Below are positions 9,523-29,379 of a DNA stretch of 64,000 nt, piece after piece. The stretch is from Geosiphon pyriformis. Taxonomy: Eukaryota; Glomeromycota; Glomeromycetes; Archaeosporales; Geosiphonaceae. The position numbers and the translations under genes are program-made. A model generated the notes under the pieces. It had not been told where the DNA came from. It ran no database searches and saw only the letters and a list, made by a program, of their open reading frames with translations. Where the stretch lies: positions 1,161,322 through 1,225,321 of the forward strand of contig JAAOMT010000664.1 of the NCBI GenBank assembly GCA_016748015.1. Reading direction: 5' to 3'. How positions within the stretch are numbered: the first letter of the stretch is position 1; every line of letters begins with the position of its first letter.

Positions 9523-9839
9523 AACAAATAAAGGTAAGTTAGAAGAAATAGTTAACAGAGACTAAGGTAAGAGAGAAAAAGAAAAAGCAATTTCTTCAAA
9601 ATTATCTTTTGCTTTTATTGTGGTTAGGAGATTGACGAAAGAAAAGATTTTTTTTTGTTTTTTAATTTAATACTTATTTTTATATTTAGATTTGTAATAT
9701 GTAATTTTAAATTAGTATATTTTAATAATTATTTTATTGTTTATAAAAATTTTATATAGTTTTTTCTAAATAAAATTTATTTAATAATATTTAATTAATT
9801 AATATTAATAATATTAAATCTGTTATTTAAAAAAATTAT

Positions 9840-12060
9840 TCTTTGTTTCTTTAATTTTATAACCATAACCAAAACAAAAAATAAAAAAACTATAATTAAT
9901 AATTTTTTTTGGTATTTCATAAAGTTTTAATTAAAAAAATTTTCTCTGTTATAAAAACAGCTAAACAAAATATTTTGGAAGCTTTTTTCTTAACTAATAA
10001 TAATAAAAAACTGCTTTTGATAATTGTTAAAACATTTTTCTTATTTTTGTCTGGTTTTTTACTGGTCAAAGTTCTTTTAAAAAACACATTTAAGTTAATT
10101 TTAATATTGTTTTTACTTTTTTTAAAAGCCTAAAAGTTTTCAATAACAAATTAGTTAACAAGCTGGTTTTTTTATTATAGTTTCTATATCTGGTGCTTTT
10201 AGTATTATCTCTTTAAAAATAATAATTAAAAAAACCAAAGTTTTAAAAAAGCAAAAATAGCTGTTTATTTCTGTTATTATTACACTAAACTTCTTTGTAA
10301 TTTTAAATAAAATTTCTATTATATTATCTAATTTATTACTCAAGATAAGCCAAGATTAATTACTGGCTGTATTATTAAATATGATGCTTTTTGGCAGATT
10401 ATCACCAGTTTTAAAAACAAAACAATAGTCTTCTGTTAAATTATTTGTTCTTGAAAATTGGGCTAATCAAATAGAAACTGAATTATTCTTTTTGTTGGTT
10501 TTTAATACTGCTGTTGATAATATTTAAAAAATTATTTCTAGTTGTTAAAAATTTATTGGATAAGTGGTATTTATTCTGGTACTTAATACTACTTTTAAGA
10601 TTAAATTGGCTTATATTAAGACTGTTTTTTAGTCTGTACATGATTTTTTAGATGTAAAATCAGTATTAAAAAACAATATAAAGCTTTTTTATATGGAGTT
10701 TACTTTTCAAAAGTTTTTAAAAACTGGTTTTTTGGTTGAGCTTACAAGTTTTGTTTGTCTGGCCACTTTTAAATTGCCAAATATTTGGTGGCTTTTGAAT
10801 TTGGTTCTTTTTTTGCTATTATTGTTTTGTATAATATGCTGTTGAATATATTTGCTGCCAATATTAAAATATTATTTAGTGTTTTTAGTAAGATTGTCTG
10901 TGTTGTAGTGAAATTTACTGGTGTTTAACAATATGTTGTTGTTTATTTTAAAAAGCTAAATGCTGTTGTATTTACTTTGAATTATTAGTTAGTATTAATA
11001 AGCAAGAATAGTATTAAAATTTTCTTTTTAATTAATCAAAATAAGACTATTTTGTCTTATAATAAATTTAAACTTAAGTTGATTAATTTTTTTTTTAATT
11101 GTACTGTTGTTGAGATTAATAATATAATCTCTTAAGTTGGTGATCAAACTTGTTTTATTTTCTGCTTTTTTGATTTTGGTCAATATTTTTGGTTTGTACT
11201 AATTATGTTTAAATCTTAAAGTGATTTAAATACTACAGTAATTAAGACTAGTACACTAAAAAAATGCTATATTTGATAGAAAACTTTTAATTGTAAATGC
11301 TATTTTAGATATTAAAAAGTAAGCCATCTAGTTATAAACTGTAAAATGTTTTTACCTTTTTCTTCTAAAAGTCTCAAAATACTCAAGATGTTTACACTAT
11401 GTTTTATGAATATTAAGTTTTATGTTAAAGCTTCTGGTTTTTTGAGTTCTCTTGAATTTTCATCTTTGATAACTTTATCTTTTTTTTGTAATTGTTGGTA
11501 ACTCTTTAGTGTTTTTTTGATTAACTTCTTTAAAATCTGATTTGGCCAAACTATTTGTATTGGTTAAGTTAATTGTTAAGTCTGTTGGCTTTTTAGTTAT
11601 TATATTTGAACAATTTATTAAGAATAATTTGGTTTTAAGCAGTATTTTTAATCTCAAAATTAATAAACTTATAATTTATTTGGATTTTTTTAGCAAAATT
11701 GTTGGTAAGTTGGAAAAAAAAGTGCTGTATAGATAATATTAATATATCTGTAATTTAAATTTTTTAGTTGGTATTGATAATAACATATTTTTTAACTTGA
11801 TGTTCTTTTGAGAACATAAATTTAATAGTATTAAAATTAATCTTTTAAAAATGACTAAATGACTGATTTAATTAGTCTCTTATAGTATTAAATTATTTGA
11901 TGTAGTTCAAAAAATATTAACTTTGAATAAGTTTATTTTTGTTGTATTATTATAATATAATCTAAACTGGTTTAAATAGCTAGTTATATATAGAAAATTT
12001 ATAAACTACATTTAGTTTTGGAATATTTAGTTTGTTTTTAATTTCTAGATAATAATTACA
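9840..12060 (+). pseudogene. Strongly decayed LINE ORF1 relic A
   Basis: Very AT-rich. Translating the plus strand through its stops gives recognisable blocks of a LINE ORF1 type different from copies 1 and 2: YIKTVF, SVHDFLDVKS, NIKLFYMEF, FLVELTS (about 10610-10770), then QYVVVYFKKLN (about 10930-10965), ILSYNKFKLKLINF (about 11050-11100), GDQTCFIF (about 11140) and a wrecked zinc knuckle (about 11290-11340). Stops at GV*QYVV and CYI**KT fall where I recall Trp in related Rhizophagus ORF1 proteins. The last open part is at 11542-11736. I could not trace an ORF2 behind it. It is a parallel partner of relic B (12470-15400). Confidence 0.6.
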
Positions 12061-12469
12061 CTATACTTGTTAAATCTTAATAATAATAAAAAAGTTAAAA
12101 AAATACAATAATATTATCAAAACCAATTTTAAATTAATACTTTTATTTTAAATTAAATTTTTTAAAATTTAAAAGTTTTTATTTTTTAAAAATATTTAAA
12201 CTATTATTTTTATTTTTTTTGTTAAAAATTGTTTTATATAATATATATTTAAGTTTTTAATATATATATATATTAAAATATTTGGTTTTATTTGGTATTT
12301 TTATATTAAAATATTAATTTTAAACTTAAAAAGCATATTAATAATAATTATTTTTATTTTAACTTGAAATTTTTTTTAATTTATATTAATTAAATAATAA
12401 TTTTTAAATTGTTTTTTATTTTTATAAAATTAATTAACAGATTTTTGAAAAAAATAAATATTTAAAAAT

Positions 12470-15400
12470 TTTAAATTACTTTTTTTTTAATTTTATAATA
12501 ATTAGAACAAAAAGTAAAAAAGTTTTAAATATTACTTTTTTTATAGTAACTAATAAAATTTTAACAAAAAAAAGTTTTTTTGTTATTAAAGCAATTAAAT
12601 AAAATATTTTAATAATATTTAAAAAAAATATTAATTATAATAAACTGTTTTTAACAGTATTACAGTTCAAAAATTTAGCAAAAAAAATATAAATTATCTA
12701 ATCATAATATAACATAGTAATAATCTTAAAAAAATAACAATTAATATAATAACAAGTACTAGCTTATAATAGTGATCAATACCAACTGATAATAATAACA
12801 AACACCAGATTAAAATATCAAAAAAATATTACAATGTGTTTTTTTGTAAAACTACAAATATATATATATATAGTAATTTTAATATTAAAAAAAATAACAA
12901 GTTATCAAACAATTTATTTAACAATTTTACTTTAATTATCTTTTTAGTCTTTATTTTTAAAATAAATATCCACAAAGATTTTTAAATAAAAACAAATCAA
13001 AAAGAATATTAAAAATTAAATTATTATAACTTAAAGTATTAAGAAATTTACTTATATTATTTATTAAATAAAACTATTATTTATTAGCTAAATCTCTTGA
13101 AAAAATAATTTTTAATCAAAATTATTTATATTTTTATTAATTCATAAAAGCTTTATTATAAAAATTAAAAAAAAGACTAAAGACTATTAATATTTTATGT
13201 TTTTAAATTAAAAAAACACATTAGACAATTACAAAAATAGTCTTAAAAAGAATCTTAAATAGTAAGTAGATTTTACTTTAGTTTCTAAAAAAAGTGTATA
13301 AACATATACAACAATTAAAATTGAGAAATAATTTACATTACAACATCAAAAAAAAGCTTTTAGTATAAATATTAATATTATTACACAAATAGAAATAAGA
13401 AATTCACAAAAGATTAATTGTAATTAAAACAAAATATTTGCAATTAAAATAACAAAAAAAACCATTTTATAATAATAATTTTTAAAGTATTTTTTTTACT
13501 TTTGGCTAATGGTTTTTTTTTAATAAAAATTTTTTTTAAGAAATATATTTAAATTAATTTTAATGTTATTTCTACTCTTTCTAAGAATCTTAAAATTTTA
13601 ATAATAAATTAATTAACAAACTAATTTTTTGTTTTTATTACTATTACTACTATTTTATAAATAACTAAAAAAACCAAAAACTCAAAAAAACAGCAATAGT
13701 TACTTATATTTATTATTGTTATATTAAATTTTTTTGTGGTTTTAAATAAAATCTTAAAAAAAATCTTTTTAATAGCAACTAATTTTCTTTTTAATATAAA
13801 CAGCAACAATAATAACACATTTTTCAAGATAAATTAAGATTAATTATTAATTGTGTTGTCAAATATGATGTTTTTTAGCAAATTATTATTAGTTTTAAAA
13901 ACAAAGCAACTTATTAAGTTATTTGATTTTAAAAATTGAATTAATTAAATAAAAATTAAATCAACATTTTTTTTTTGTTTTCTAATACTGTTTTTAGTAA
14001 TATCTGAAAAATAATTTTCAGTTATTAAAGATTTTTTAGATAAGTGGTTTTTATTCTAATATTTATATTATTTTTAAAATCAAATTAACTTTTATTAATT
14101 TTTTGTTTTATTTGTTATTTGGTTTTATTAAATTTAAATCTGTTTTAAAAGATAATATTAAGCTATTTTGTATAGATTTTGCTTTTAAAGCTTTTTTGAT
14201 TACTATTCTTAAAATTTTTATTAATGAATTTATTTTAATTACACTTAAAATTACAAAATATTCAATAGTAGCTTTTGGTTTTTTTTTTATCTTTGTTGTA
14301 TTTCATAATATTTTGCTTGACATATCTTTTAATAATATTAAAAATGTTTTTAATATTTTAATATTATTATTTTAATAAAATTAAAGTTTGTTGACTTGTG
14401 ACAATATATTATTATTAATTTTAAAAACTTTTTTTTTGCTGTTACTGCTTTTAATAACTGGTTTGTATTAGTTAAAAAAGATAATATTAGAATTTTTATT
14501 TTATTTAATTAAAGAAAAATTATTACTTTAAAAGATATTTTTAAGATCAAATTAGTTAATTTTTTTTTAGTTGCATTGTTTTTGAAATTAGTAATTTGAT
14601 TTTTTAAGTTAATAATTATATTTGCTTTTTTTTTTGCTCTTTTGATTCTTATTATTGTTAATATTTTGTTATTATTATATTTAATTTTTATAAATTTTTG
14701 AATTTTATTTTTGTTAAAATTAATACTTTGTACAATATTATATCTGATAGAAAATCTTTAAGTATTATTGTTGCTATAATTATTAAAGTTTGAATTATTT
14801 ATTTACTAATTATAAAGTATTATTATCTCTTCTTTTTAAGTTATTTATTAAGTTTATTGTTAATTTTAAGTCTTTTATTTTGGTTTTTGTTGGTAAAAAA
14901 TTCTATATTAAGACTTTTATTTCTTTGGTTTTTTTTTGGTTATTTCTGTAACTGTTTTTGTTGTTGATTTTGTAATTAAATTAAGATTGAATTTTTTAAA
15001 ATTTCAGATTTTAGATTTGGCTTTTTAATTAAGTTTGTTGTTATACTAATTAATATTTTGATAATATTAATTACTATTTTTTTAAATGCTTTTTTTGTTT
15101 TTGGTAATATTATAGATTAGTTTTTTATAAATATAATATTAGTTAAAACTAAATATAATTTTAATATTAATTTTATAGAAAAATGTAATATTAATCTACT
15201 TAATAATAATTTTTATACTAAGTTAATTATTTTTTAAGAATATTAATCTAATTTTATCAAATTTGATATTAATACAATTATTGTATAATTAAGTAGTTTT
15301 GTTAAAAATAATAATATACTAATTAGTATTATAAGTAAGATATTTTTTTAAAATAAATTTTTTTTTATAATAATATTTTAATTAGCTTAAATAATTGATT
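12470..15400 (+). pseudogene. Strongly decayed LINE ORF1 relic B, split by a solo LTR
   Basis: This is a second copy of relic A in the same orientation and is even more AT-rich. The left part (12470-12657) matches 9840-10030. The right part (13475-15400) matches about 10030-12060, for example NIKLFCIDF at about 14150-14180 against NIKLFYMEF in relic A, and the 'tcaagataa..aagattaatta' block at about 13823-13845 against about 10341-10362. The two parts are separated by the repeat at 12658-13474. The open frame 14103-14375 is a surviving piece of the ORF1, not a separate gene. Confidence 0.55.
12658..13474. repeat. Solo LTR inserted in LINE relic B
   Basis: It starts with TATTACAG and ends with TTATAATA, the decayed form of the TATTACAG...CTGTAATA ends seen at 51102-51920. 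Its 817 bp length is nearly the same as the 819 bp of that copy. The right third matches 1-221 as well. It interrupts an alignable LINE relic, which supports insertion. No convincing target-site duplication could be recognised after decay. No internal retroelement sequence is attached. Confidence 0.65.
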
Positions 15401-16963
15401 ATATATAGAAAGTACATGATTTATATATAGTTTAAATTACTTAATTTAATATATTGTATTAGATTGTGTTTGAGTCTTACTTATTAAATAAATAAATAAA
15501 AAAAGTTTGAATTTTATTTTAATATATATAAATAATAAACTTTTATTTAAAAATTTATCCAATAAATTTTTTGTATTTATAAATGGTATTATTATAATTA
15601 TTTTATTTTTTATTTATATTTATATAAATATTTTAATAATATAAAAAAACAAATAATAAATAATCTTTTTTGAAAAATTTTTAAACAAATTTATTTTGAA
15701 TTTTTTTTATTATTCTGTTTTAAAATTTACATTTTTTATTAATAAAATAAAATTAAATATAATATTTAATAATAAATTACAAAATTATATATATATTATT
15801 TATTTAATATTGTTTTTTTGAATGTTATATTATCAAAAAACAAATATTATATTAGTTTTTTATATTTGGTTTATTTAATTTGTTAAAAACATAATTTAAA
15901 TATTAATAAAATTTACTTAATTTAATTATATTAATAATTTAATTATATTTTTTATTTTAGCATTTTTTATTTTTTAATTAATAAAAATAGCAATAGTTTT
16001 TATTATTAATAGTAATATTATTGATAAAAAAAACCAATTAATTAAGTTTAAAATATTTTATATAATAATATAACTATTATTTATTAAATAATATTATGTA
16101 TAAAAATATATATATTATTATTTATGTTTTAATATTAATTATTTAATTATTATTTAACAAACTTTTATTTTATTAATAATTTATATAATTTACAAATATA
16201 ATTAAATTATATATAAGAATTTAAAATTAAGAATATATAAATATTTTTAAACTTTTAACTTAAATTAAAACTTTTTTTAAAAAAGCAAACAAATTAAGTT
16301 ACCAAAAAAGTTACAATGTATAATTACAATAAAAATTACAATAGATATTTAATTATTTTTTAATACTTAAAACATTTTTAATAACAATATATGTATATAT
16401 ATTGTATTTATAACAAAGTTTTCAATTTAATTAATATTTACAAATTAAAACTTGATTAATTATTTTTAATAAATTTTATAAAAAACTATTAAAATTTATA
16501 TTTAAATCTAAATTAATTGTAATTATTAAATATATTAATATTAATATAAAAGCTTTTATTTTTATTTTTCAGTTAAATATTAACATATTAAATTAAGAAA
16601 TTAACAATTAGCAGAAAACAAATCATTTGTAATTTGAAAAAATAAAATAAAACTTTACAATAAAAATATTTTCAATTCATGTAATAAAAGCAAACTTTTC
16701 ATTCAGACATCAATTGGTTCCAATTTTATATCAATTCAAAACTTCCAGATTCCTAAGTCAGATTTATTTCATGTAGCTTTTCTACATAGGACGAGATTTT
16801 CGTCGAACAAAGATAGTCTTGGAAAATTATATGAATCGTATTTTTAACAAATATCGAATCATTCCAGTAATCCGAGAGCACAAAAATGAAAGATACCGTT
16901 GTTGGAATTTATGCAAATTTTAAGAAATTAGGATCCGTTCTTTCGTGGATTCAATCTATAGCT
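15400..16963. other. AT-rich spacer before the gene island
   Basis: To about 16650 the sequence is almost only A and T with no supported gene. From about 16680 the base composition changes sharply towards that of the host genes. 16700-16963 is probably the 3' flank or 3' UTR of the minus-strand gene that ends at 16964. No RNA gene was seen. Confidence 0.5.
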
Positions 16964-19468
16964 TCATCGAAGTTTCATAAATATGAGGTAACAAGCCTAT
17001 TTTCGCAAAACAAAATTCAAATTTAGTATTAATTGACTTTTAAATAGATAATCGAATATATAAAAAAACCTACGTGAACAATTGGTAAATGATCTACATT
17101 TCCTCCATCGGCTATAGCTTTTTCATCGACGTATTCTTCATATGAACAGATTTTTCTTTTATCTTTAGCGTGTCCTTCGGGAACAGTGATAACTAGCTCC
17201 TTTAACGGCATCACATCTCCACCCACCGCACGATTAATATCTTCCATAAATATCATGCTCAAAGGCCATAGTTTACCTTCTGGGCTCCTAAAATCTTGGG
17301 CACCGACTATTAAGAAGCCAGAGGGAGGAAGATTATTGTGTGCTTCACGGGCTAAATGGGTAATTGCGGTTCGATAGGCTGGGATGTTTTCGACATTAAG
17401 TGTTCCATTTGGAATATGGGGTACCACAATAAGTGCTGTAGGTGTAGGTGGAGGCAATGGTTTACTAGCAAGAAGTTTCTCAACATGTGAAATATCATCC
17501 GATGATTCACTTAGATCAGAGATGAGACCCTAAGAGTAATTAATTCAGGAATTGGGCTTATTAAGAGAATATTCATGAAATAGGCAGAATAGAAATAAAA
17601 AAAAACTTGCCAAAGAAAGAAGCATTTTCTGATTTTCTTGTATTCTTTTCTGCCTTATTTTCTCATACTCTGACAATCCATCCAATTCACTATCTAGTGT
17701 CTCTGAGTTAAAGCAATAAAAAAGAGATTATCTCAAGTGCATATATAAAGAATACTGAAGGTAATCACAACAAACCTTCATCTTCTTTTAATTTAACATC
17801 CTGTTTATGATTGGTTTTCTAAAAGAAAAAACAGATTAAGAGCCGTGAGAAGAAATGATTTGATGAAAAGAGTTGTTTAAATAAAATTTTTACCAATAGA
17901 GCATTGAAATTTAATTTAATTTCTTCCCAATTGGCCAAGTCTCTACCAAAACGTTCAACCTGCACAAAATTCAAATGAGCGAATTATAGATGGTTATTCA
18001 TTGTTAAGTCGTTAATGTCGTACCATTCTTGATGTACATAACAGCACAAAATCATGACGTGGGGAAGGCTTAAAAGTCCAAGTAGTTCCCATGACAACAC
18101 TCTTTCGTGCAATGGGAACTGTGGGTATTTCACGCCAGGTGCGAGAAAAAGTCACATTTTCTTGAATGGTTGAATGATCTGAGGAAGAGAAATATTGTTG
18201 AGTAATAACAAGATTTGTCTATATCTTAGAAAAACGAAAATTTAAAATACCAGGTGTCAACATCATTGAGTCATTATTTCTCAAATCTACTTTTTTCAAT
18301 GTGGCAATAAACTCATGCGTAAACATTAAAAAGTCGTATTGTACACATAAATACGTCCCTAAACCAAAGGCCTGGCAGTATCTTTGCCTTTTCACTATCT
18401 GAACACAGAAAGGTTGACTTAGATTATTAAACTATTCCATCTTCAATATAAAACATAGCCTGGAGAATTACTTACTAGTTCCTCAAGTTCGAAACCACGA
18501 TCCATGTATTGACGAATCAACTGAAAGCTGACTGGAACATAGAAACATTGTTCGCGATTGTCACCAATCCCTAGTGTGACTCTCTTTCCAGGTTTTAGTA
18601 GCCTTTAGAGTTTATAAATGAAATGATTTTCGTTATTGATTGAGCAAAGGCTCAAAGGCTAAAAATATAATACCTCCAAGATTCATCAACCACTTTGGAC
18701 ATTTCCATATTAAATTCCGCCGAGTTTGCAAACCGCGATAAATCTCCGTCGATGTGGGTTGAATACTCAACACTGATTTAATAAAGAGGAGTAATAGGTC
18801 AAAAACGAGAAACAACGAACAGACCTATCTATTCTACTAACCAATTTTTATATGGGGGATGGCTCAAAATGTGATCAAAGGACTCATCTTCGAATAGCCT
18901 TCCACTCAGTTGCCGGGAATCAGCTTGTAAAATGATGGGCCGATGTTCAGCTGTGGTACCACGACCAGGTGGAATTGCGAAAGAACAATTACGTTGTGAT
19001 AAAGCGACAGCTGCCTATATTCGGATGAAAATTTTACATTTTGCCTCTAATTAATTCACCCCATGCTATTATAAACATACCGGATTTATATCTACTCCAA
19101 CGCCTCTGTTAAACAGTCCAAAGGATATATTATCAGATGAAAAATCGAAAGAATATAGCAAGCTAAATGAAGTTTACCTTCGAGAGAGCAAAAAACATTC
19201 AATCGCGTCGGTTCCTGATAATTATAAATTTAAGTTCTTTTATATCTACACCTACTACAGTTAACATGTGAGCTAACGAACCTCTGCCAAGAAAATTGGA
19301 AAGAATCCTTTCATTCTTTTTGGTATAACGAAGTAATGCTCTAAAATAAAAAATTAATTTTCGTAATTAATATAGTAAATGATTCGAATTTTTCCTTTAA
19401 AAAATCATACCTGCGGACAGTTTGTGGTAACCATGTGCCATGATAATCCGTACCGCTATGAGTAGCCC
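16964..19468 (-). other. Exons 15-28: amino-methyltransferase domain plus second methyltransferase-like half
   Basis: Conserved start DYHGTWLPQTVRR (19468-19411). SAM motif I is ILSNFLGRGTDAIECF (exons 16-17), followed by RGVGVDINPAAVALSQRN with the acidic residue after strand 2. Motif IV is DHILSHPPYKN (end of exon 19, about 18845-18875), then CVEYSTHIDGDLSRF, LLKPGKRVTLGIGDNR, YVPVSFQLI, LIVKRQRYC and YDFLMFTHEF. The order I before IV and the PPY tetrapeptide are those of prokaryotic N4-cytosine/N6-adenine methyltransferases of gamma-like order. MT-A70 enzymes carry DPPW instead. The final 170 residues (GFLIVGAQDFR, GKLWPLSMI, LKELVITVPEG, HLPIVHACYLIFMKL) resemble the C-terminal strands of a second methyltransferase fold, but without visible motif I or PPY. 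Confidence 0.8.
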
Positions 19469-22400
19469 CTTATTTCCAAGGTAAAGTTGAAATTAGCAAG
19501 TAGAAATAAATTTATCAAAAATAATTGCAACTAACATCGAGGTGCTCGCCCCGGAATATCAAAATATGAACTGTCAAATGGCAATGAAAATAATTGATTC
19601 TCAGCAGGTTCATAGCTGTCTAAATAGAGCGCTTGGGATTGTGAATAGTCAAATTTCACACCAGAGACCGAAGTTCTTGTCAGATATGGTGTATGAGTAT
19701 AATCCTCGATGGAAGCGACGTATTTTTCTTTTCCGAATTGCGACTCATCTGTAGGATTGTTTACAAGTGCAAGTTCAAAGCAGTCTTCACACATTAAAAC
19801 ACCATTGTAACCTGTCGAAAAGTAAAATTCCGCTTTTTGTTATTGATGTGAAAGGTATTTTAAGAAACCTAATCTTTGATCCGTAGCTAAAAAGGGAGTC
19901 GATTAGATACCTTTTCTCCATCGAGATGACTCTTCTGACCAACAGTAAGAACACTGAACTTGTGACCCATTTTCTCGCTTCTTGAATGTGCTTTTCGGTT
20001 TTCTTCGGGATGCTTGAAACGAGGAGTTGTTGAAAAAACATTATAACAGCAATTGCACTTCGTTAATATGATCTTAAGATATTTGATCATGCATACCATT
20101 CTCAGATTTGGCCTTCTCTTTATTTAAAGTGATAGCGGCTCTTTTTGAAGATTCCTCTTCCTGAATTTTGCGTAAAGCTATAACATATACCAAAGGGATG
20201 AGATACTTAAGTTTTTTTTTGAAAAAGTGAATCATTGGGAAAATACGGACATGTTTCCCGAAACTCATCTTTAGAATGTTCATGTTCATCTGGAAAACAT
20301 TCTGGAAAGCACTTTGGATAGGATACAAATTGAAAGTCAATTAAATAGGTCAGTTCATCGTAATCCATGAATACAGCTGGATTTTTACCTTGGAACACAA
20401 ATCAAAGGTAGTGAAGAATTTTTCAGCACAAGGAGAGCAGGACCACCATGCTTCTTCCTCCTGCAACTCAGCAGAACAAACATCACATCTAAAACATTCA
20501 TTATATTCTTCTGAAAAGAAGTTTGATATGAGATTCATGGTAATACTTAAAGATAAACGAGGAATATGAATTTAAGAAATAGCCGTACCTATTTTATTGT
20601 GAATCGCCTCATGACTAGGACAATAGAAAATAACCCCAATTTCAAAATGGGAAAGAGGTTTACCAGTACATGCCAGATGGAAGCTGCGGTTACATTTAGG
20701 TTCAAAACAACCAATCGTTGCCCCCCGCTCTTTACATTTTCCACATTTCTTGAATGATTAATTGTATTTCAATTAGCCTTATACGTTTTTGATAAATGGA
20801 ATAATCAATAACCTACCATACTTCTGCCTCGTCTCCAAGCAATTGTCACATTGTACCATTCGTTATTTTTAGTTTGGACAACTTCTGGGGAATATTTCGC
20901 GCACGCATAATGGGCCCAGAATATTTTTTTTCTTTCACCGTGACGTGAAGCGGCAGACGAAGCAAAAGGGTGAGGCCCGATAAAGCCACCAAGACGTTCA
21001 TTTTCATCGTCATTGCAAAACCCACAAATTTTTCGTGCGCTCCACGCTTTTAAATACAAATATCCCATATCACTTTCTGGAGGTACTAATTCATTCAATA
21101 ATTTGCTGTTTTTATCCTTGAATGTTGTGTCAAATTCATCTTTCTCAAAGGTCGAAATAAGTTCGCCTTTAGAAGATAAATTGGGTACCCCATCACCAAG
21201 AACAGATTGCACAGCGAATGAGCAACGTGGATGTTGATGATCTTCAGGAAAGTTATGAGCAAAACACCTTACAAAAAAATTAATGTATGAGAGCTAAGAA
21301 ATTCATTTTTTTAAATAATAAATAACAAAATAGTGCATGTCGCAGACTTTACCAGATACATAACTCAAAACTCTTATAATCATTTCCTTCTGAAGGAGAT
21401 TCACAATATGTACAATAATATCTAAGTTAATAAATAAGAGAAGTTAATCATTTTTGTACAGAAGGTTTTAGTTTGGGCAAAATTATATTTATGATTGAAA
21501 AATCATTGGAGTAATTGAGATCTACCTATATTGCTTGATAATAACGTTACATTGGTTACAATATATAAACCAATTGCCCCTGTCTATACAATTTTAAAAG
21601 GTAGAAATATTGATAAATATAATGATACTTGTGTCAAAATTCAAGTGTATGATTAAACTCGTAAATTTATACCTGAGTCATTTCCATAAACTTTACCGTC
21701 TATAACGTATTCAATATTACTGGCGATTTCATCGAATTTAGAATTCTTCTTGGTTTTTTTTGTCCTATTAGCTGCGGATAACAAGGATTCTAATTCATCA
21801 CTTTCAGCACTGGTAGCACCCTCAACGTATCCACCCCGCAAGCGCTGACTATTCATGTCAATCCATTCATCGTAAACAGAGGAGGAATTGTCATAATGGA
21901 TCAAAACTCGATAGCCTTTAGCTTCCACGACTCTAGCTGAATGCCATTCTTTAAATGCATCACGTGCCTCTACTTTGGCTCCTGCTCTAAAACGAGCCTT
22001 CAACTCGTGTAGGTCTGTCGAAGTATCTTCATCAAACCGATTTTTGGATTTACCTTCACGTACAGCTTGACGAGAACTACGCCTGACATATAATTCTCGC
22101 CAATCAAAGGTACTGGAATACTCTAACGTAGATTGTCGACTCTTAGTATCCGAATCATCAGAAGAACCTTCGACTGGCTCATAATTTTGAAGACTGAATC
22201 TCGGTTTTGTTCTTGGGGGGTTTCTACCTTTATGATGCAAAGGTGATTTTATTTTTTCACGTAAAGCTTTACCTCGGCTTTTGGGAGCGATTATTAAATA
22301 GTCATCTTCAACCATTTCAGAATCGCTTGAATCGGTTTGATATTGAGGCTCTTCAATATCTAGCTGCGCGCCTCTTTGAGAATCTAATATTTCTTCCAAA

Positions 22401-25400
22401 GTCATTTCACGCAATCTAGAACTTTCGGCTGGTATCCATTCATCAAATTTAGCGTCCCATCCATCATAGTGAACACGAATCCTGCTGTTTTGAATATCCA
22501 TCATCATTCCAGTATACCAATTCCCATCAAGGCACAAGACTTTGACTCGTTTATAAAGTTCAAAGCCGTATTGGCCACCTCTTCGAGACCGGCTTCCTAA
22601 ATCATCTCCGAAAAGGCTTCGACAATAAGAGCAGAGTTCAAGGCTTCCCACTCGTTGAACATTCAAGTGCAATACATTGCAAGATTCACAAACTTTCTGA
22701 ACAAGTTTCGGGTGCTTTTTTGAAAAATATAAGGATTCATCATCCTCTATATTTGAAGTTTTTCTCCTAACTTTAAGAACTCCTTTATTACGGCGTTGAG
22801 GCTCAGTTTCACTAAGGCTTGTTGATTGCTTACTAATACTGAGAGTATCAAATTGAATATTCTCTACACTATTGGATAAAGAATTGTTGATATTGTGTTT
22901 ATTGGAACTGCTGGATTTTTTGCTAATTTGTTTTCTTTTTGATTTGCCTTTGTCAACCTCTTTATTAGCCTCTTTATCCATCCCAACATCATAGACTTCA
23001 GCATTTGTTTCTAGCTGACTCCTAGAATTTTCCTGATTATTATACATTTTCTGAATATTATTGTCATGAATAGACATTCTTAACCTCTGGCTATCGACCC
23101 GTAACCATTCATCATATTCTTGCCCCCATCCATCATAATGAACTTTCACTTTAGTTTTCTCAACTTTGACAATTTTCCCAGGGTACCACAACTTGTCAAA
23201 ACTAAGAACTTCAACCTTATGGTTTAATTCATAGCTGTGAGACATTGATTTAACTCTGGTCAATTCGGGGGCAAAGAGAGGTATACATTTAGGGCATAAC
23301 TGAAATGCACCTATTTTTTCAATATTTTCGTGAGCCTTATTGCAAGATTCGCAATTCTTCGTAGTGGGGACCCTTTGTTGTTCGTTTGACTTTTTTCGAA
23401 TACTTAAGGTGTTTACCGCAAGTTGTGAGTTTTTTATCTGGTTATTTCTCGGATTTGAGGATTCTTTCTTTTTAATTTGCGAAGCCTTTTCGACAACTTC
23501 GATCCCTCTGTCTAAATTTGACGTTGAATCTGTATTTTCAGAAGCTGAAGAATCCAAGTCTGAAAGTGAAGTTAAATCACTACCGTCACTATCCATAAAA
23601 TCGAAAACTGAGGATGAAATTATTTTTGAAGTAATAATCTCTGGCTGATCAGGCTTCTTTATTTCTGGCTTTAAGGAGATTTCTAATATATCCAACTCTG
23701 GAGGCGTTTGTGGTTTTTCATCAAGTTCTTTTGGCTTGAAATTCTCGCTAAGGCCAAGTTTAAAAACCTTTCCACTATCCTCCTTAGAAATAAATAGGGT
23801 GCTCTTTGAACATTTAAGATTATCAATGGGATATGATTCATTATGATTGCCCTCTATATCACCTATTTGCTGACTTCCTTCATCTGAACATACAGCCTTA
23901 ATCCTATCATCTTCGATGCCCATTGATATGTTAATTTTCCTCAATTTAAATTCTCCCGCCTCAAATGAATCTTCGACTGAAATTTGACTTATTTCCACTT
24001 TGTCATCTTCTCCAGAGACAGAAGTTTCATCATGCAAAAAATGAAAAGATGGACGGATATTTATATTTTGTTGTATACTAGTCGAGGGATTTGTTACAAT
24101 ATCCTCAACACTCGGTGTTTTCATAAGGACATCCAAAGGCTTGCTTGGAAGATCTGGATAATCAGGAGCAAAATTTTGTTGAGGATTTTCCAATCTAACT
24201 TGCTTCATGAACATAGGAAAACCTAGTATTTCGACACTAGGACCATCATCAATTTTCATTGAGCAGATTTTGATATTCGAGTCTACAATGATTGGTGGTT
24301 GGGAAAAAGTGGGATTTTGGGATGCCCGGAAAAAAAGGGGTTCGTTTAATTCACAAAGTTTTTTCACATGATAGCTTGTTCCAGATCCAAGGCTTTGAAC
24401 GGGTAGCAAAGGCTCGTCAGTTCTTTGTTCATCTGGATGTGTTGACCCAAACATTACTGTATTTCCCTTATTATCTATATGACTTTCTACTTGATCTTCA
24501 GGTGAACCAATTTTAGGTGAATTTGATCTACCGTTATTTGACAAAAGCTCTTCTGTTTTGTTCTGATTTTTATTACTAGAGATCGTTAGTTGATCCGAAT
24601 TAAAAAGTTTCTTTCGATGGTCTACTATTGGTCTGTCTTCTGGTAACTTTTTAGGTTCTGAGGATAAAACTTGCTCTTTATTCTTCTCTTCATCATAGAT
24701 GACCATTTCCAACTTAATTCTCTACGAATGAAAGAGATGTGTTCGACTTGGACATATGGCATTTTAATCTCTAATAAAGAAAAATACAGCTTCAACATAC
24801 CTTTTTGAATCCAAAATCTTGGTTTTGATTATCTTCCTGTATTTTGGTCCCAATATTGTTAGGTGTATAGCCTAGTTTTAAGCGGTCCACTCTAGTTCCA
24901 AGATTAATTTTGATGGTGTTACCCATCTTCTTTTGAGTGAACAGTTTGCGGTCATCTTTGAAATAGGATTTTTTCGGTTCTATTTCATTAGCAGTAAGGT
25001 GAGCATTAGAATGGACTAAAGTCCGCTTTTTCGTTTCTAATTTTGTTTTTTTCTCATCTGATTCCTTGGACATATGCTTTATAGTTTCATTTCTGGTTTT
25101 GGTATTCGCCAAACCAAGGCTACTCGAAGTAACATTCTTTTGATCAAATGCGATGTCATTTTGTGTATCCCGTATCGTTGGTTTCTTGAAATTAAAATTT
25201 GGATGTTGTAAAAACACAACAGTTTTAAAATAAAGAACATACTCATCCAATAGAACTATTTACCTTTGTGGAATAGAGAATGGGACCGGCCTCAATATAC
25301 GGAGAGGGAGTTGGGGCTGGAGGAGTTTGATATCCAAAAATTGATTGTAGACCTTGTGCATTTGGATATTGATGATGCAGAAAAACCTGTCGTTGCTCAC

Positions 25401-26124
25401 GTTCATGTGGTATATTATGAGAATCGTAAAGGAGAAACTGAGATAAATGACATCTTAGTGAATATATCATCACTGGAAATTTTCTTTTGGAAAATTTTAA
25501 AACGAAGATTAACCTGAGGATTTTGGGAAGAGTTTTGAATATCTTGACCTAACCAAGTAGGATGATTTTGAAACTCTATATTGGGCCAATTAGAAGCTTG
25601 TTGATAATTGTGGTTCGCTACCCCAGTGATCGGCGAATGGTTGGAATAAATATGGTTTTGAAACACGAATGATTGAAGCGAGCTTGGGGGATACATGTTT
25701 TGAGAATGAAAATATCCCGGTTTGTTTGTTTGGTAATTCTGTCCATTCCTATACAAATTGCCACGTTTCGGTTTTTGTTTCCGAAAATGATCGGTAATGG
25801 TAGTTTGATAATTATGATTACCACCTTGATTTCTATCGGAACTGTTAACAGTAAGCTCTTGCTGAAAACTTGGGAGGTCTCTAGATTGAAAATCTTGAGG
25901 GGCACCTGCTTGTAAAAAATTTTCGAGTATAATTAAATAGGAGAATAGAGGTATCATTGAAAAAGCGCCAAAAAATATTCTATCACTCTAAAACTATTGA
26001 GCAAAATAACAAAGTTAAAGCCAAATGAATAGTGTCCACCTTCACCTGTCCTAGCCGTTTGAGGCTGCCAGTTAAAAGTTGGTGAGTTTTGTGAGGGCCA
26101 GAGGGAATTATGAGAGGACTGCAT
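16964..26124 (-). CDS. Multidomain chromatin reader fused to bacterial-type DNA methyltransferase
   Basis: A 28-exon gene. Exon ends (high to low) include 26124-26046, 25905-25514, 25437-25264, 25184-24801 and 24721-21673, then 23 small exons down to 16996-16964 (TGA at 16964-16966). Summed, they give 7,029 nt with every junction in phase, or 2,342 residues. Domain order: Asn/Gln-rich N-terminus (1-340), acidic/Ser-rich region, Cys4 finger (about 800), Tudor (about 838-888), Cys4 finger (about 1020), Tudor (about 1064-1113), Tudor (about 1255-1307), ZZ finger (about 1365-1420), extended PHD (about 1482-1600), ZZ finger (about 1608-1660), GATA-type finger (about 1715-1738), methyltransferase (about 1825-2055), degenerate methyltransferase half (about 2150-2342). 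Likely nuclear; it probably reads histone marks and methylates a nucleic acid base. Target base and substrate are unknown. The start is the first in-frame ATG after a stop. Least certain are the N-terminal exons 1-3 and the junction of exons 11/12 (donor GTCCGT). The N-terminus could belong to a separate gene, but phases argue for one. Confidence 0.85.
17530..17610 (-). other. GC-AG intron
   Basis: Intron 26 of the reader-methyltransferase gene. After the Leu codon TTG the donor is GCAAGT, the standard form of non-canonical GC donors, and the acceptor is TTACTCTTAG. Only this junction keeps phase 0 between LLSL and GLISDLSE. Confidence 0.7.
19536..21583 (-). other. Exons 6-14: ZZ, extended PHD, ZZ and GATA-type zinc fingers
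   Basis: ZZ finger 1 crosses three exons (YCNQCN, YYCTYC, FELCIWCF, then DHQHPRCSF; 21583 to about 21220). The extended PHD covers 21030-20590: CGFC, FWAHYACA, then after an intron KCGKCKERGATIGCFEPKC, SFHLAC and FYCPSH, so all zinc ligands of the atypical second PHD are present. ZZ finger 2 lies in 20510-20250 (CFRCDVC, WWSCSPC, FDLCSKCF, DEHEHSKDEF). The GATA-type finger is split by an intron between 19911 and 19811: CSYC, SSRWRKGYNG, CEDC, spacing C-x2-C-x17-C-x2-C. These are histone- and DNA-contacting modules in other proteins; the ligands here are unknown. Confidence 0.82.
21673..24721 (-). other. Exon 5: acidic region, two Cys4 fingers and three Tudor domains
   Basis: One 3,049 nt exon. 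Two Cys4 fingers of identical spacing C-x2-C-x15-C-x2-C (beginning CESCNKAHEN and CESCNVLHLN, coding near 23350 and 22690) are each followed by a Tudor domain (KVHYDGWGQEYDEWL near 23150; RVHYDGWDAKFDEWI near 22460). A third Tudor has no finger before it (KVEARDAFKEWHSARV, then HYDNSSSVYDEWI, near 21990-21840). The pattern EARD..K.W...V.......HYD....YDEW...S..LR is that of PHF20/MBT-type Tudor domains, which bind methylated lysine. The first 400 residues of the exon are low-complexity, Ser/Glu/Lys-rich and probably disordered. The stretch from 22700 to 22980 is basic and Ser-rich. Confidence 0.85.
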
Positions 26125-27073
26125 TGCATTTGCTGGCCACACTCCGCGAATTTTTTGGGAGCCTTAAAAAGTTCAGACCTTGCGCATAGAAAGACTTTAA
26201 GACAGCGGTTTTGTTCTAAGTGTTCAGGAGAACATATATCAAGAAACTTACAGACAATCCTCAGAATTTTATGTTGCACGTCCCCGAGGAACCTTTTTAA
26301 TTGGTAGAAATTTATGGCTCAGTTAATAGGCTATATTGTTAGTTACCGCTATTTTGAGCAAAGCTGCCAATTCGAAAAAGAAGAGAAAACAAATATGGAA
26401 TAGTTACAAGAGGCCGAGAAATCCCAAGTTCAAGAGCAGGAACGAAGTTACTAGCACTCTAAAAATGTGCTTTGAAAACTCGTGGCGAATTGGAGGCAGC
26501 CATTATATCGTATGCAGACACATAAAAAAAATTGTTTGACGGAACATGACTGTTGTGCAACCGATTTTAACTTTTTTGAAGATTTTCCGTTGCGGCTAGA
26601 AGGGCTCAACGTAAAATTGGCCATAATAAAGGGTAAAAGACGACATTTTACTTTTATTTAAGAGTTGAGCGAGCGAAGCATTTCTTTCCTGCAAAACATT
26701 TTTATTGATGCAATGTCACACGTTTTCAACACCTAGTTAAGTAAATCTAGTTTTTGGTGTATCATTCCCAGATATTGGGGTTTACAGTTGCTTTTCCTGG
26801 ACAAACAACGCAAGTACGTGCCCCAAGGTTTAACCGTTAAAACTGAACAGTGCATTTGTGATTAACCTTCACTGTTCGGGACAAATCAAAGATTTATTTT
26901 TATTTTTTGAATGATCAGCTATGGTCATCTTTAATGTAATCTATTTCCCAGGCAGTATAGAAATTGAGACAACATCGATCATTTCTGAGATTTTATCAGT
27001 GAAATCCAGATTTATTTGAATGAGAAGTTAGACCATTAATAATCAATAGTTAAACATTGTGAGGATTCAAAAA
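26125..27073. other. Intergenic region between divergent genes (shared promoter region)
   Basis: About 950 bp separate the start of the minus-strand methyltransferase gene from the plus-strand polymerase gene. Base composition is like that of the genes, not of the AT-rich relics. Short open frames here (for example 26336-26539) show no domain and are not supported. I did not recognise specific promoter elements. The arrangement allows a bidirectional promoter, which is inference. Confidence 0.5.
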
Positions 27074-29379
27074 ATGTTCTCGGGATTAAATTTTCATATT
27101 ATTAACGCGAAGCTTAATGGCGAAAAGATAGAAAACCTAAAGGGTCAAATCGTTACTCTAGGAGGCAAAGTTTCTGATAATATTTACGATGCCGATGTAT
27201 TTTTAACAGTTCTTAAATCCCCGGCGAGACTCACACGTTACGTTTCAGAAAAGGTTGAAAAACCAATAGTGTCTTTGGACTGGATTGAAGAATGGTTCGA
27301 AAAGATCATCAATTTGCTAAATAGACATGATTAAAAAGCTTCTTTTCACAAATTTTGGATGTTTAATTCTTCTTAGTATAGTTGCTAAGACAAGGTTGCC
27401 TTTTAACGGGCACCTATTAGCTAGCTTAAGAACAAACAGCAAAACGAATGATGCTGCGGAGTCAGAAATAACTGGCTCTCAAGGATCACAAAGACAATTG
27501 GACATTTATTCGGATGCCAGCAGTTTTGAAAGCGGGTAAGTACCATATTTTAGAAATATCAAGCTTGATTATATTTATCGCTTACGTTCGTAGCTTGTCG
27601 GCCGATTCTAATTTAACGGATGACGAAATTCTCGAACAAGCTGATGAAACTGCTGCTTTGGGTAATGGATAATACTATTGGAGATAGTCTCTTAAGCTTT
27701 GTGCTAAAATAGATATTCCCAGATTATAAGGTTCTTCACTAACTCTATTACCTTAGATCCCAGATTTCTTAACACAAAGTATGAATGTCTTCGCCCTACA
27801 CCGCTCATTCCAAGATATAATCAATCCTTAATTGAGCTACTGGACATTTTAGCAAGAGACCGGGAAGTCAATGAAGAATCTCTTAATGCTTTGAGTTACC
27901 GTCATGCAATAGCTGCACTGAAGGTAAATTTCACATATTTATATTAAGATTTTAAACAGAAGTATGATATCAACTGATTTTTTGAATATTTTGGTTACAG
28001 GCATATCCAAAAGACATTGAAAGTGCCAAGGAAGCAAGAAAAATAAAAGGTTCCTCGAAATGCCTTCTTGCTCCACTTTTTCAAATGCACTAACATTTAA
28101 ATATGCCTAGGGATTGGTCCGAAAATTAGTCTTCAAATTCAACTATTTTTAGAAACAGGTACAATTGAAGAAGCGCAGGAGATTCGTGTTTCTGAGAAAT
28201 TTCAAGTTTTGGATACGTTTTCCCGTGTGTATGGTATGTGGACACTATCTGAAAAAACATAGCTTTCATTACCATCAGGGAAAAAAATTGATTTTCTATA
28301 GGTGTTGGGTTTAAAACGGCACAAGCTTGGTATCGCAAAGGTTATCGAACAATTGATGACTGTTTAAAGAATCCAAAATTGACTGAGAACCAAAGAGTTG
28401 GTCTAGATCTCTTTAAGGATTTTCAAAAAAAGTCTCGTTTTGAAAATTTATCGAAATAACTGCAGTTTTTTCAAATCTTTTGAAATCTAATTTTTAATAA
28501 TATCTTAGGATGACGCGCCGAGATATTGAAGAAATTCTTGAAATTCTTGAAAAAGAGATTACAGCCATACACCCTGATTGTAAAATTACTCCTGTAGGAG
28601 GTTATCGACGTGGTAAAGAGTTTAACGGAGATGTTGATGTTATAATATCGCATTCTGACGAAAAAAAATCCGGAGAATTACTTGAAGAATTGACTGACCG
28701 ATTATCAGCAAAAGGTATAAATTTTGTATCAAGATTAACAGAGAATTTTTCCGATTTTAATGTTTTTTTTTTACTTTCATAGGATTGTTAAAATATAAAT
28801 TTTTTTATACCAAGTCAAGTACAGTTTCTAATCTCATATCTAGAAAGCATCATATGATGGACCGTCTAGATAAGGTAAGACTTGCTATTATTGCCTAATA
28901 CTGATCAAGACGATTGCTATTTAAACAACTTCCTTTAATTATTAGTGCTTTTGTGCATTTTATCAGCCCAGCTCTAAAATTTTTCGGCAGTTAGATATAA
29001 TTGTTGTCCCAAATATCCAATATCCCACTGCACTTCTGGGCTGGACAGGTTCTATTTTTTTTTATTTTTTTATTGATAAAGTTATCTTATAGTTTTTAAA
29101 TTGTTCCTGTTCTTGAATTTCCTTCAGGATCCCGACAGTTTGAGCGTGCATTAAAATTATATGCATCAAAGGTCTTTTCGATTATAATTAGAGCAGTGAA
29201 TACTTTTTTGAAATTTGCATAACGTAAGTTAACTCTTTTAGGAAAAGAACCGAGTTTTTGCATCCCATGGTCTTTTTACCAATACCAGGCCACGCAGGCG
29301 CATCTTTGTCTCAAGTGAAAGGGAAATTTTTGATATTTTACAGATTCCTTGGATAGAGCCTGAAATGCGAAATTGCTAA
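27074..29379 (+). CDS. Family X DNA polymerase, Pol mu/TdT/Pol4-like
   Basis: Twelve exons: 27074-27294, 27395-27535, 27594-27661, 27757-27923, 28001-28049, 28111-28233, 28302-28431, 28509-28714, 28783-28874, 28946-29048, 29128-29171, 29242-29379. They sum to 1,482 nt in phase, giving 493 residues. An N-terminal BRCT domain (GGKVSDNIYDADVFL, SLDWIEEW) is followed by a Ser/Thr linker. Then come the 8-kDa and fingers regions with helix-hairpin-helix KIKGIGPKISLQIQ and YGVGFKTAQAWY, and the palm with catalytic pair GDVDVII and third Asp in RQLDIIVV. The thumb has ALLGWTGSRQFER, SHGLF and EPEMRNC. Such enzymes fill gaps in end joining and base-excision repair. GWTGS and SHGLF are typical of Pol mu/TdT, while Pol lambda and beta usually have YFTGS. 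All catalytic residues are present. Confidence 0.9.

Follow-up and report, generated by a model that had tools for sequence, protein, structure and literature searches.

A single gene of the fungus Geosiphon pyriformis joins chromatin-reader modules to a C-terminal methyltransferase of prokaryotic type, and its product is probably a chromatin-guided DNA amino-methyltransferase. The gene occupies positions 16964..26124 on the minus strand of the window, by which we mean the whole stretch of 64,000 nucleotides that was analysed (contig JAAOMT010000664.1). Judged from its sequence, the SAM-dependent N6/N4-type methyltransferase is complete and is homologous over both of its domains to an enzyme of restriction-modification operons. 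An earlier note on this DNA had described the fused gene, and that observation is confirmed; its first interpretation, a chromatin-coupled writer of DNA methylation, is partly supported.

Gene structure

Rebuilding the gene on the minus strand gave one reading frame of 2,339 residues in 28 exons, running from 26124 to a stop codon that ends at 16964, with an uncertain 5' end (first exon and start codon). The exon count agrees with the earlier note, while the length that it gave, 2,342 residues, is replaced by 2,339. The 27 introns are 64-149 bases long and have GT-AG borders in 26 cases and GC-AG in one. From residue 94 to its end the model is letter for letter identical to G9A89_017589 (P0037, 2,246 aa), a Geosiphon pyriformis protein that was annotated independently. 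In relatives, annotation likewise gives a single protein of the same architecture, in agreement with one gene in which the readers are joined to the methyltransferase; chance is excluded as an explanation, given how many genera conserve the arrangement.

Catalytic domain

The methyltransferase catalytic domain (18291..19566, minus strand; residues 1807-2045) was delimited by Pfam PF01555 and by its prokaryotic relatives. On the same strand it contains the SAM site, motif I (NFLGRGTDAIE, 19198..19297, spanning one intron), motif IV (HPPYKN, 18844..18861) and a GDNR motif (18554..18565); motif I, at residue 1851, precedes motif IV, with HPPY at 1928. The seven motifs listed earlier (FLGRGT, DINP, ILSHPPYKN, GDNR, YVPVSF, KRQRYC and THEF) are all present, in the order claimed. 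F.GRGTD, HPPY and GDNR were each found in 23/23 relatives chosen for comparison, and HPPY in 143 of 156 proteins. With a median identity of 77% in the 23 chosen relatives, the methyltransferase is the best conserved of the parts measured.

The cut-off of PF01555 (N6_N4_Mtase) is 26.7 bits; the C-terminal piece scored 43.9 and the whole of P0037 just 27.1. All 23 chosen relatives matched this family at E up to 0.01. The PADLOC type II methyltransferase model PDLC03376 matched the fungal protein P0001 over nearly its full length (E 2.5e-36) and prokaryotic relatives down to E 6e-115. Profile searches thus lead to a DNA methylase family and to a type II restriction-modification methyltransferase model, bearing out the proposed prokaryotic-type amino-methyltransferase. 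When the single Geosiphon sequence was compared with solved structures, the best match was the tRNA methyltransferase 5e71 (E 3.2e-5), which counts against the DNA reading, followed by 2zie, a putative DNA modification methylase (E 6.6e-4); a profile search reversed this order (2zie 1.1e-13 vs 5e71 1e-7). No NCBIfam model exceeded its cut-off, which also counts against the DNA amino-methyltransferase.

Degenerate second half and prokaryotic relatives

The C-terminal methyltransferase of the earlier note is borne out, but the captured piece is larger than was noted and includes a degenerate second half. Over its last ~530 residues the protein matches a prokaryotic enzyme of two domains, a catalytic one and a degenerate second catalytic half (hhalign 99.4%, E 1.7e-21). 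A conserved linker element (17912..18113, minus strand; residues 2081-2126; median identity 66%) aligns where the C-terminal module of the prokaryotic enzyme begins, and the degenerate methyltransferase half lies at 16967..17439 (minus strand; residues 2208-2339). This half was matched by 113 of 114 fungal pieces, two of the 114 being the same Geosiphon protein, and a control piece gave no match.

Identity to the prokaryotic two-domain HPPY relatives is ~35-41% (catalytic domain with HPPY and GD.R). Enzymes of the PDLC03376 kind (loci L007-L086) have the same catalytic domain, degenerate half and motifs, in the same order, as the fungal enzyme; they differ in that they are without chromatin readers, 64 of 80 being 498-563 residues long, and some adjoin restriction enzymes. 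For 69 genes that follow the prokaryotic relatives, Pfam identified DpnII in 8 and PDDEXK_11 in 3, PADLOC restriction models matched 8, 7 and 1 (overlapping, and among the matches listed), and suspected DpnII-type neighbours were confirmed in 9/9 cases. The majority of the 69 matched no restriction family, which counts against the reading that we prefer. An intron-blind scan of the Geosiphon genome gave no DpnII match; negative scans of this kind are weak evidence, because the PF01555 scan missed this very gene.

Small genes also follow many prokaryotic relatives and form clusters of 18 and 12 proteins. One protein from each cluster had no PADLOC match, and comparison of two neighbour proteins with solved structures found nothing useful.

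Phylogeny and distribution

The profile matches 345 sequences, 292 of which cover >85% of it, and thinning left 96 for a quick, unrooted tree: 26 single prokaryotic hits, 53 loci and 17 sequences counted as fungal, 11 by name and 6 by resemblance (P0002, P0013, P0023, P0026, P0157 and P0159). In this tree, where 11 of 93 inner branches are starred and 48 are open, the fungal copies group as a single clade, itself on a long branch; four fungal branches are long, and two of these meet. The phylogeny called for by the earlier note unites the fungal copies, while no donor is identifiable among the 96 sequences.

The named relatives, among the matches listed, are all early-diverging fungi and belong to Glomeromycota, Mortierella, Mucorales, Umbelopsis, Basidiobolus, Kickxellales, Dimargaris and chytrids. 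Mucor, Rhizophagus (R. irregularis, P0043), Spizellomyces and Podila carry the gene. An origin peculiar to Geosiphon was rejected, since the fungal copies are one clade and the gene is conserved over many early-diverging fungi.

Reader modules and fingers

All of the following features are on the minus strand. A four-cysteine finger and the first Tudor/MBT-like barrel lie at 23078..23359 (residues 795-888; Pfam MBT, Chromo_MORC2 and Agenet), a region matched by the solved chains of L3MBTL3, L3MBTL1 and PHF20L1. A second four-cysteine finger and barrel, also from Pfam, follow at 22406..22696 (residues 1016-1112), and the third barrel, the best Pfam MBT stretch, is at 21833..21985 (residues 1253-1303). 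MBT (PF02820) was matched over three stretches with E 3.3e-18 and 66.1 bits against a cut-off of 22, and at E up to 0.01 in 21 of 23 chosen full-length relatives. A cysteine-rich finger region at 21213..21560 (residues 1365-1417) has a median identity of 64% in relatives and no Pfam family above its cut-off. The extended PHD finger (zf-HC5HC2H, PF13771; 20605..21035, residues 1477-1597) scored 42.7 bits (E 6.8e-11, cut-off 29.1), was found at E up to 0.01 in 23/23 chosen relatives, and is matched by solved KMT2D-containing and PHF6 chains. By their resemblance to solved readers, the barrels and the PHD finger are putative readers of histone marks.

The ZZ-like finger (20252..20499, residues 1607-1663) was assigned by its cysteine pattern; Pfam ZZ had no match in the Geosiphon protein at E up to 10 and was found in 2/23 chosen relatives at E up to 0.01. 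For the GATA-like finger (19771..19959, residues 1709-1738), Pfam GATA was below threshold in Geosiphon (E 0.011, 15.7 bits against a cut-off of 26.8) and was found in 5/23 chosen relatives at E up to 0.01. In the alignment of relatives, the cysteines of both fingers either do not vary or reach at least 90% conservation. Thus, of the Tudor, PHD, ZZ and GATA modules described earlier, the MBT/Tudor-like and PHD modules are above cut-off, and ZZ and GATA are weak by profile.

Proposed mechanism

The barrels and PHD finger would bind nucleosomes carrying particular histone marks and so place the catalytic domain, helped by cysteine fingers that may contact DNA. With SAM as donor, the catalytic domain would then methylate a base on its exocyclic amino group, adenine N6 being a somewhat likelier acceptor than cytosine N4. 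The second half, which is without a catalytic motif, would bind the active half or DNA, much as METTL14 does for METTL3. No nuclease partner is fused, and sequence recognition has probably been replaced or supplemented by chromatin recognition.

A wider proposal, which we consider a serious possibility though short of probable, is that this is a third, so far undescribed DNA-base methylation system, present in early-diverging fungi since before chytrids split from other fungi and probably lost toward Dikarya. A restriction-modification methyltransferase would have been captured with its active and dead halves, and histone-reading modules within one polypeptide would have come to govern which DNA it acts on. 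Its product may be 4mC, or else 6mA at positions not accounted for by Mta1 and MetB.

Target base and alternative activities

Adenine is mildly favoured over N4-cytosine as the predicted target. The special case in which N4-methylcytosine is written at reader-chosen chromatin, as reported for rotifer N4CMT, is rather unlikely. HPPY is neither DPPY, typical of 6mA enzymes, nor SPPY, typical of 4mC enzymes, and PF01555 includes both kinds, according to the available text of PMC8885841. In the accessible part of the Mucor study (PMC11258239), 70-75% of 6mA was lost on deletion of metB, and mutants of mta1 and p1 yielded no symmetric sites, so that any third source of 6mA could hardly be large in the conditions used; this counts against the preferred reading but favours cytosine, since most Mucor 6mA seems to be explained by known writers, and an additional conserved writer may deposit a different mark. 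Rhizophagus irregularis, called low in 6mA in the portions of the literature available, likewise counts against a DNA amino-methyltransferase, as the species has the gene. The literature searched contains no report of 4mC in fungi. DpnII-type specificity is for adenine in GATC, so the DpnII-type neighbours of the prokaryotic relatives fit adenine better, and some plasmid and phage relatives at ~24-31% identity bear adenine-methylase names (names only). The Clostridium thermocellum methylome, in the part of PMC6791906 available, was reported without a 4mC motif, although that strain may not carry the relative P0187.

That chromatin-bound RNA or protein is methylated instead of DNA is improbable. 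The fold is common to tRNA and protein methyltransferases, the prokaryotic relative P0179 is named as TRM11 family, 5e71 leads the single-sequence structure search, and TIGR01177 and PrmC of NCBIfam turn up as sub-threshold matches; but the closest models are a DNA methylase and a type II methyltransferase, prokaryotic relatives adjoin restriction enzymes, and the C-terminal piece has no tRNA-binding THUMP domain by Pfam at E up to 10. Still less probable is a domain that has lost catalysis and acts as a scaffold for binding DNA or SAM. As a motif IV, HPPY is unusual, and the catalytic role is a prediction from sequence; yet prokaryotic relatives also have HPPY, and all 23 chosen relatives retain the motifs for SAM binding and catalysis within the most conserved domain. 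A model joining two neighbour genes, or bacterial contamination, was rejected as extremely improbable, for although the prokaryotic kind is confined to the C-terminal part and the joint is known from gene models, there are 27 introns, an independent annotation has identical splicing, and relatives from many genera have the two parts joined in the same way.

For the preferred reading of a chromatin-guided DNA amino-methyltransferase, the question of 4mC or unexplained 6mA is directly testable in native long reads, since Mucor, Rhizophagus, Spizellomyces and Podila have the gene.

Comparison with known methyltransferases

A 2016 study by Iyer, Zhang and Aravind, which reportedly classified eukaryotic adenine methylases and their fusions, may be an earlier description of the fungal family. 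No description was found in the literature searched (including the available parts of PMC7862722, PMC6305559 and PMC11065753). Identity with MetB, Mta1, N4CMT or C5 methylases was rejected: C5-cytosine methylase (PF00145), MT-A70 (PF05063, DPPW, where the motif here is HPPY) and the MetB family (PF02384) were not among the Pfam families listed for the Geosiphon protein and 23 relatives, and motif order, HPPY and reader position set it apart from N4CMT. The separate lineage claimed in the earlier note is upheld by these comparisons.

The accounts of known systems that follow are drawn from the accessible portions of the papers cited. The bdelloid rotifer N4CMT (PMC8885841) also combines a bacterial-type PF01555 enzyme with a histone reader of the Royal family, but it is permuted, with SPPY and a C-terminal chromodomain. 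In the fungal enzyme motif I precedes motif IV, which is HPPY, the readers are N-terminal and a second half is present. The authors of the rotifer study state that N4CMT has no eukaryotic homologues. Mucor MetB (PMC11258239) is likewise a bacterial-type amino-methyltransferase of early-diverging fungi and differs in being a PF02384 enzyme with a target recognition domain; Geosiphon has a separate PF02384 match on another contig. The Mta1/AMT1 complex (PMC12695648, PMC13297926) is likewise a DNA amino-methyltransferase with an inactive partner, Mta9, and has a PHD in the p1 subunit of ichthyosporeans, but it is of MT-A70 type with DPPW and its partners are separate proteins; MT-A70 matches occur at three other places in Geosiphon. 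The bacterially derived 4mC methyltransferase of Marchantia, mentioned in PMC12344493, is a captured 4mC enzyme in a eukaryote.

DNA methylation in early-diverging fungi has been described so far, in the literature available, for C5 enzymes, Mta1 and MetB, and one more candidate writer that is intact, strongly conserved and linked to chromatin would change how the methylomes of these lineages are read. It would join rotifer N4CMT and the Marchantia 4mC enzyme as a bacterial-type methyltransferase working on eukaryotic chromatin, and compared with those cases the fungal capture would be far more ancient and would extend across a large share of the kingdom.

Gene structure and domain organization

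The rebuilt gene model reads on the minus strand from position 26124 to 16964 as a single frame of 2,339 residues from 28 exons. Each of its 27 introns is 64-149 bases long and 26 have GT-AG ends; the sole GC-AG intron lies at 17530-17610. A protein search returned P0037, the Geosiphon pyriformis protein G9A89_017589 (2,246 residues), whose sequence is identical to that of the final model from residue 94 through to the C-terminus; the window is thus Geosiphon DNA. The earlier note was right to place putative reader modules and methyltransferase in one gene, and the gene it described is supported except at its 5' end. Six exons in the 125 Mb Geosiphon assembly matched the catalytic domain, every one within this gene.

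Residues 1 to about 790 have no Pfam match in P0037. These are followed by a four-cysteine finger paired with a barrel, a second such pair, and a third barrel. Pfam relates the barrels to MBT (E 3.3e-18), Chromo_MORC2 and Agenet, and the first barrel matches the solved chains L3MBTL3, L3MBTL1 and PHF20L1, proteins that bind methylated lysine. A cysteine-rich finger, an extended PHD (PF13771, E 6.8e-11; nearest solved chains KMT2D-containing and PHF6), a ZZ-like finger and a GATA-like finger follow in that order. The methyltransferase catalytic domain occupies residues 1807-2045, with motif I preceding motif IV. Some 290 further residues, absent from the earlier description, make up the C-terminal part.

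In the flanking sequence, a divergent ORF at 27050-27334 (+) is BRCT-domain-like by eye. Immediately downstream of the gene lies a block of about 4.5 kb (12000-16500) with 7-14% G+C in each 500-base step, in which repeats are short and imperfect only. Several long ORFs in differing frames at 3677-9561 (-) appear by eye to be fragments of a non-LTR retrotransposon, resembling endonuclease and reverse transcriptase.

Distribution and conservation in fungi

The first protein search gave 36 proteins and the second, with a long query, 150. Protein length and shared words restricted the search, and names were taken from the 120 of 150 matches listed for the long query. All organism-named proteins among the matches listed in both searches are from early-diverging fungi: Glomeromycota, Mortierella and kin, Mucorales, Umbelopsis, Calcarisporiella, Endogone, Jimgerdemannia, Basidiobolus, Kickxellales, Dimargaris and Dispira, and the chytrids Spizellomyces, Powellomyces, Fimicolochytrium, Geranomyces, Rhizophlyctis and Borealophlyctis. 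No Dikarya names are among the matches listed. The Mucor ambiguus relative, P0113, carries the protein name DNA methylase N-4.

With Pfam at E up to 0.01, PF01555 and a PHD-like domain were found in all 23 chosen full-length relatives and MBT in 21. Median identity to Geosiphon, over 18-22 relatives per region, is 77% (lowest 68%) for the catalytic domain, 66% for the linker element, 64% for the cysteine-rich finger, 61% for the extended PHD, 60% for the GATA-like finger, 45% for the ZZ-like finger, 44% for the second catalytic half, and 25, 25 and 32% for the three barrels. HPPY and GDNR are identical and F.GRGTD is kept in 23/23, and DINP in 22/23. HPPY occurs in 143 of the 156 proteins pooled from both fungal searches; ten of the 13 lacking it are shorter than 460 residues and three are long. 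This strong conservation of domain and motifs argues for a working enzyme. Because the barrels are strongly divergent, their predicted target may differ between lineages.

A two-domain prokaryotic enzyme and its proposed capture

A third search, using an alignment of nine domains as query, reached prokaryotes (321 proteins). Among the 120 of 321 matches listed, many prokaryotic relatives align across 95-99% of the domain with roughly 35-41% identity; one relative, P0193, has a long C-terminal extension whose beginning is also present in two more. A scan of genome contigs gave 139 loci, and the best 80 come mostly from uncultured bacteria and a few archaea. Among these 80, a pattern-based count found more than 150 residues beyond the catalytic domain in 72, and 64 of the proteins are 498-563 residues long.

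Of 114 fungal C-terminal pieces, among which the same Geosiphon protein occurs twice, 113 are matched by a profile of the prokaryotic extension, 112 of them below 1e-5 and the Geosiphon piece at 8.4e-15; the profile matches neither the fragment P0029 nor an N-terminal control. Profile against profile, the prokaryotic extension matches the fungal C-terminal part (99.4%, E 1.7e-21) and the catalytic half of its own enzyme (97.6%, E 4.8e-12), while the fungal extension matches the catalytic half more weakly (79.6%, E 1.5e-5). At the motif IV position the fungal second half has VPHIP, VGHQ and the like, and PPY in 0/23. The captured unit thus seems to have comprised an active and a dead half within one chain.

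A quick tree of 96 catalytic domains groups the 17 rows taken as fungal (11 by name, six by resemblance) and separates them from the 79 prokaryotic rows by a long branch with full support. The C-terminal module common to both groups points to the two-domain prokaryotic lineage, and the simplest history would be a single ancient capture predating the split of chytrids from the other fungi, with loss towards Dikarya. The proposal of chromatin modules joined to a captured amino-methyltransferase is right in kind. The family is more widespread and more ancient than had been supposed, and the catalytic domain recognized earlier is one of two that the captured enzyme comprised.

Genomic neighbors and target base

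In the best 80 of the 139 loci, 74 have an identifiable following gene, which shares the strand of the methyltransferase in 69 and lies within 30 bases in 57. Pfam assigns eight of the 69 same-strand following genes to DpnII and three to PDDEXK_11, and restriction models of PADLOC hit 8, 7 and 1 of them, with overlapping counts; the majority match none of these models. All nine suspected DpnII-type neighbors score above the PF04556 cut-off, five of them aligning only to the later part of the profile; a tenth neighbor protein, from another cluster, has no Pfam match. On visual inspection, with PP motifs as the only criterion, six of the nine DpnII-type loci have no other amino-methyltransferase motif, two have a further PP motif in an open frame unlike a methyltransferase, and one (L076) has a second motif, DPPY. 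Enzymes of the DpnII type cleave GATC, and adenine methylation blocks them, which mildly favors adenine as the target of the prokaryotic enzyme; the preference is only mild because cytosine methylation might protect as well and the specificity may have shifted.

Lower-identity relatives include 161 plasmid and 37 phage records, with database names such as DNA adenine modification methylase. Another relative, P0187, is from Clostridium thermocellum. The methylome of strain ATCC 27405 of this species, which may or may not carry P0187, is described in the available text as having three 6mA motifs, two 5mC motifs and no 4mC motif, with tentative assignments to named genes (PMC6791906).

Two clusters of small proteins (18 and 12 members, about 125-230 residues; e.g. 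L042:2444-3013 and L040:6206-6790) directly follow the HPPY methyltransferase in many phyla. The one member of each that was checked has no PADLOC match, and they are possibly new restriction or accessory proteins. A third cluster of followers, of about 380-460 residues (L030:6271-7620 and 17 other loci), is a candidate unknown nuclease; its L030 member has no Pfam or PADLOC match.

Evidence against the proposed role in DNA methylation

With a single-sequence query the tRNA methyltransferase 5e71 (E 3.2e-5) ranked ahead of the DNA modification methylase 2zie (6.6e-4); with a profile query the order was reversed. No NCBIfam model was reached over its cut-off. In Mucor, metB deletion is reported to remove 70-75% of 6mA, and mta1 and p1 mutants to have no symmetric sites (PMC11258239, available text), which leaves little scope for a third major source of 6mA there. 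Rhizophagus irregularis has the gene despite being called low in 6mA in the portion of the literature available. The predicted mark of the fungal enzyme may thus be scarce, confined to certain stages, 4mC, or not on DNA.

Comparison with known systems

METTL3 pairs with METTL14, a separate protein. Mta1 likewise pairs with a separate protein, Mta9, according to the available text (PMC11258239); the putative active and dead halves of the fungal protein follow a like plan with no shared descent. In the sources as available, the described 6mA writers of early-diverging fungi are Mta1 and MetB (PMC11258239; PMC13297926). In the Geosiphon genome, MT-A70 is matched at three places, PF02384 once and C5 methylases several times. 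Neither PF01555 nor N6_N4 is mentioned in the main text of the Mucor paper as available (PMC11258239), nor N6_N4 in the available text of a 2025 survey of eukaryotic 6mA (PMC12695648) or a 2026 review (PMC13297926). No description of the fungal family was found in the literature searched; a 2016 classification may contain it. From its sequence, the protein would be a captured chromatin-linked amino-methyltransferase, a known kind, in a family not described in that literature. The nearest solved DNA amino-methyltransferase, 2zie, aligns in the permuted order, with motif IV close to its start and motif I close to its end. The rotifer N4-cytosine methylase N4CMT offers the closest parallel; as described in the available text, it combines PF01555 with a Royal-family reader as the fungal protein does but, unlike it, is permuted and has SPPY (PMC8885841).
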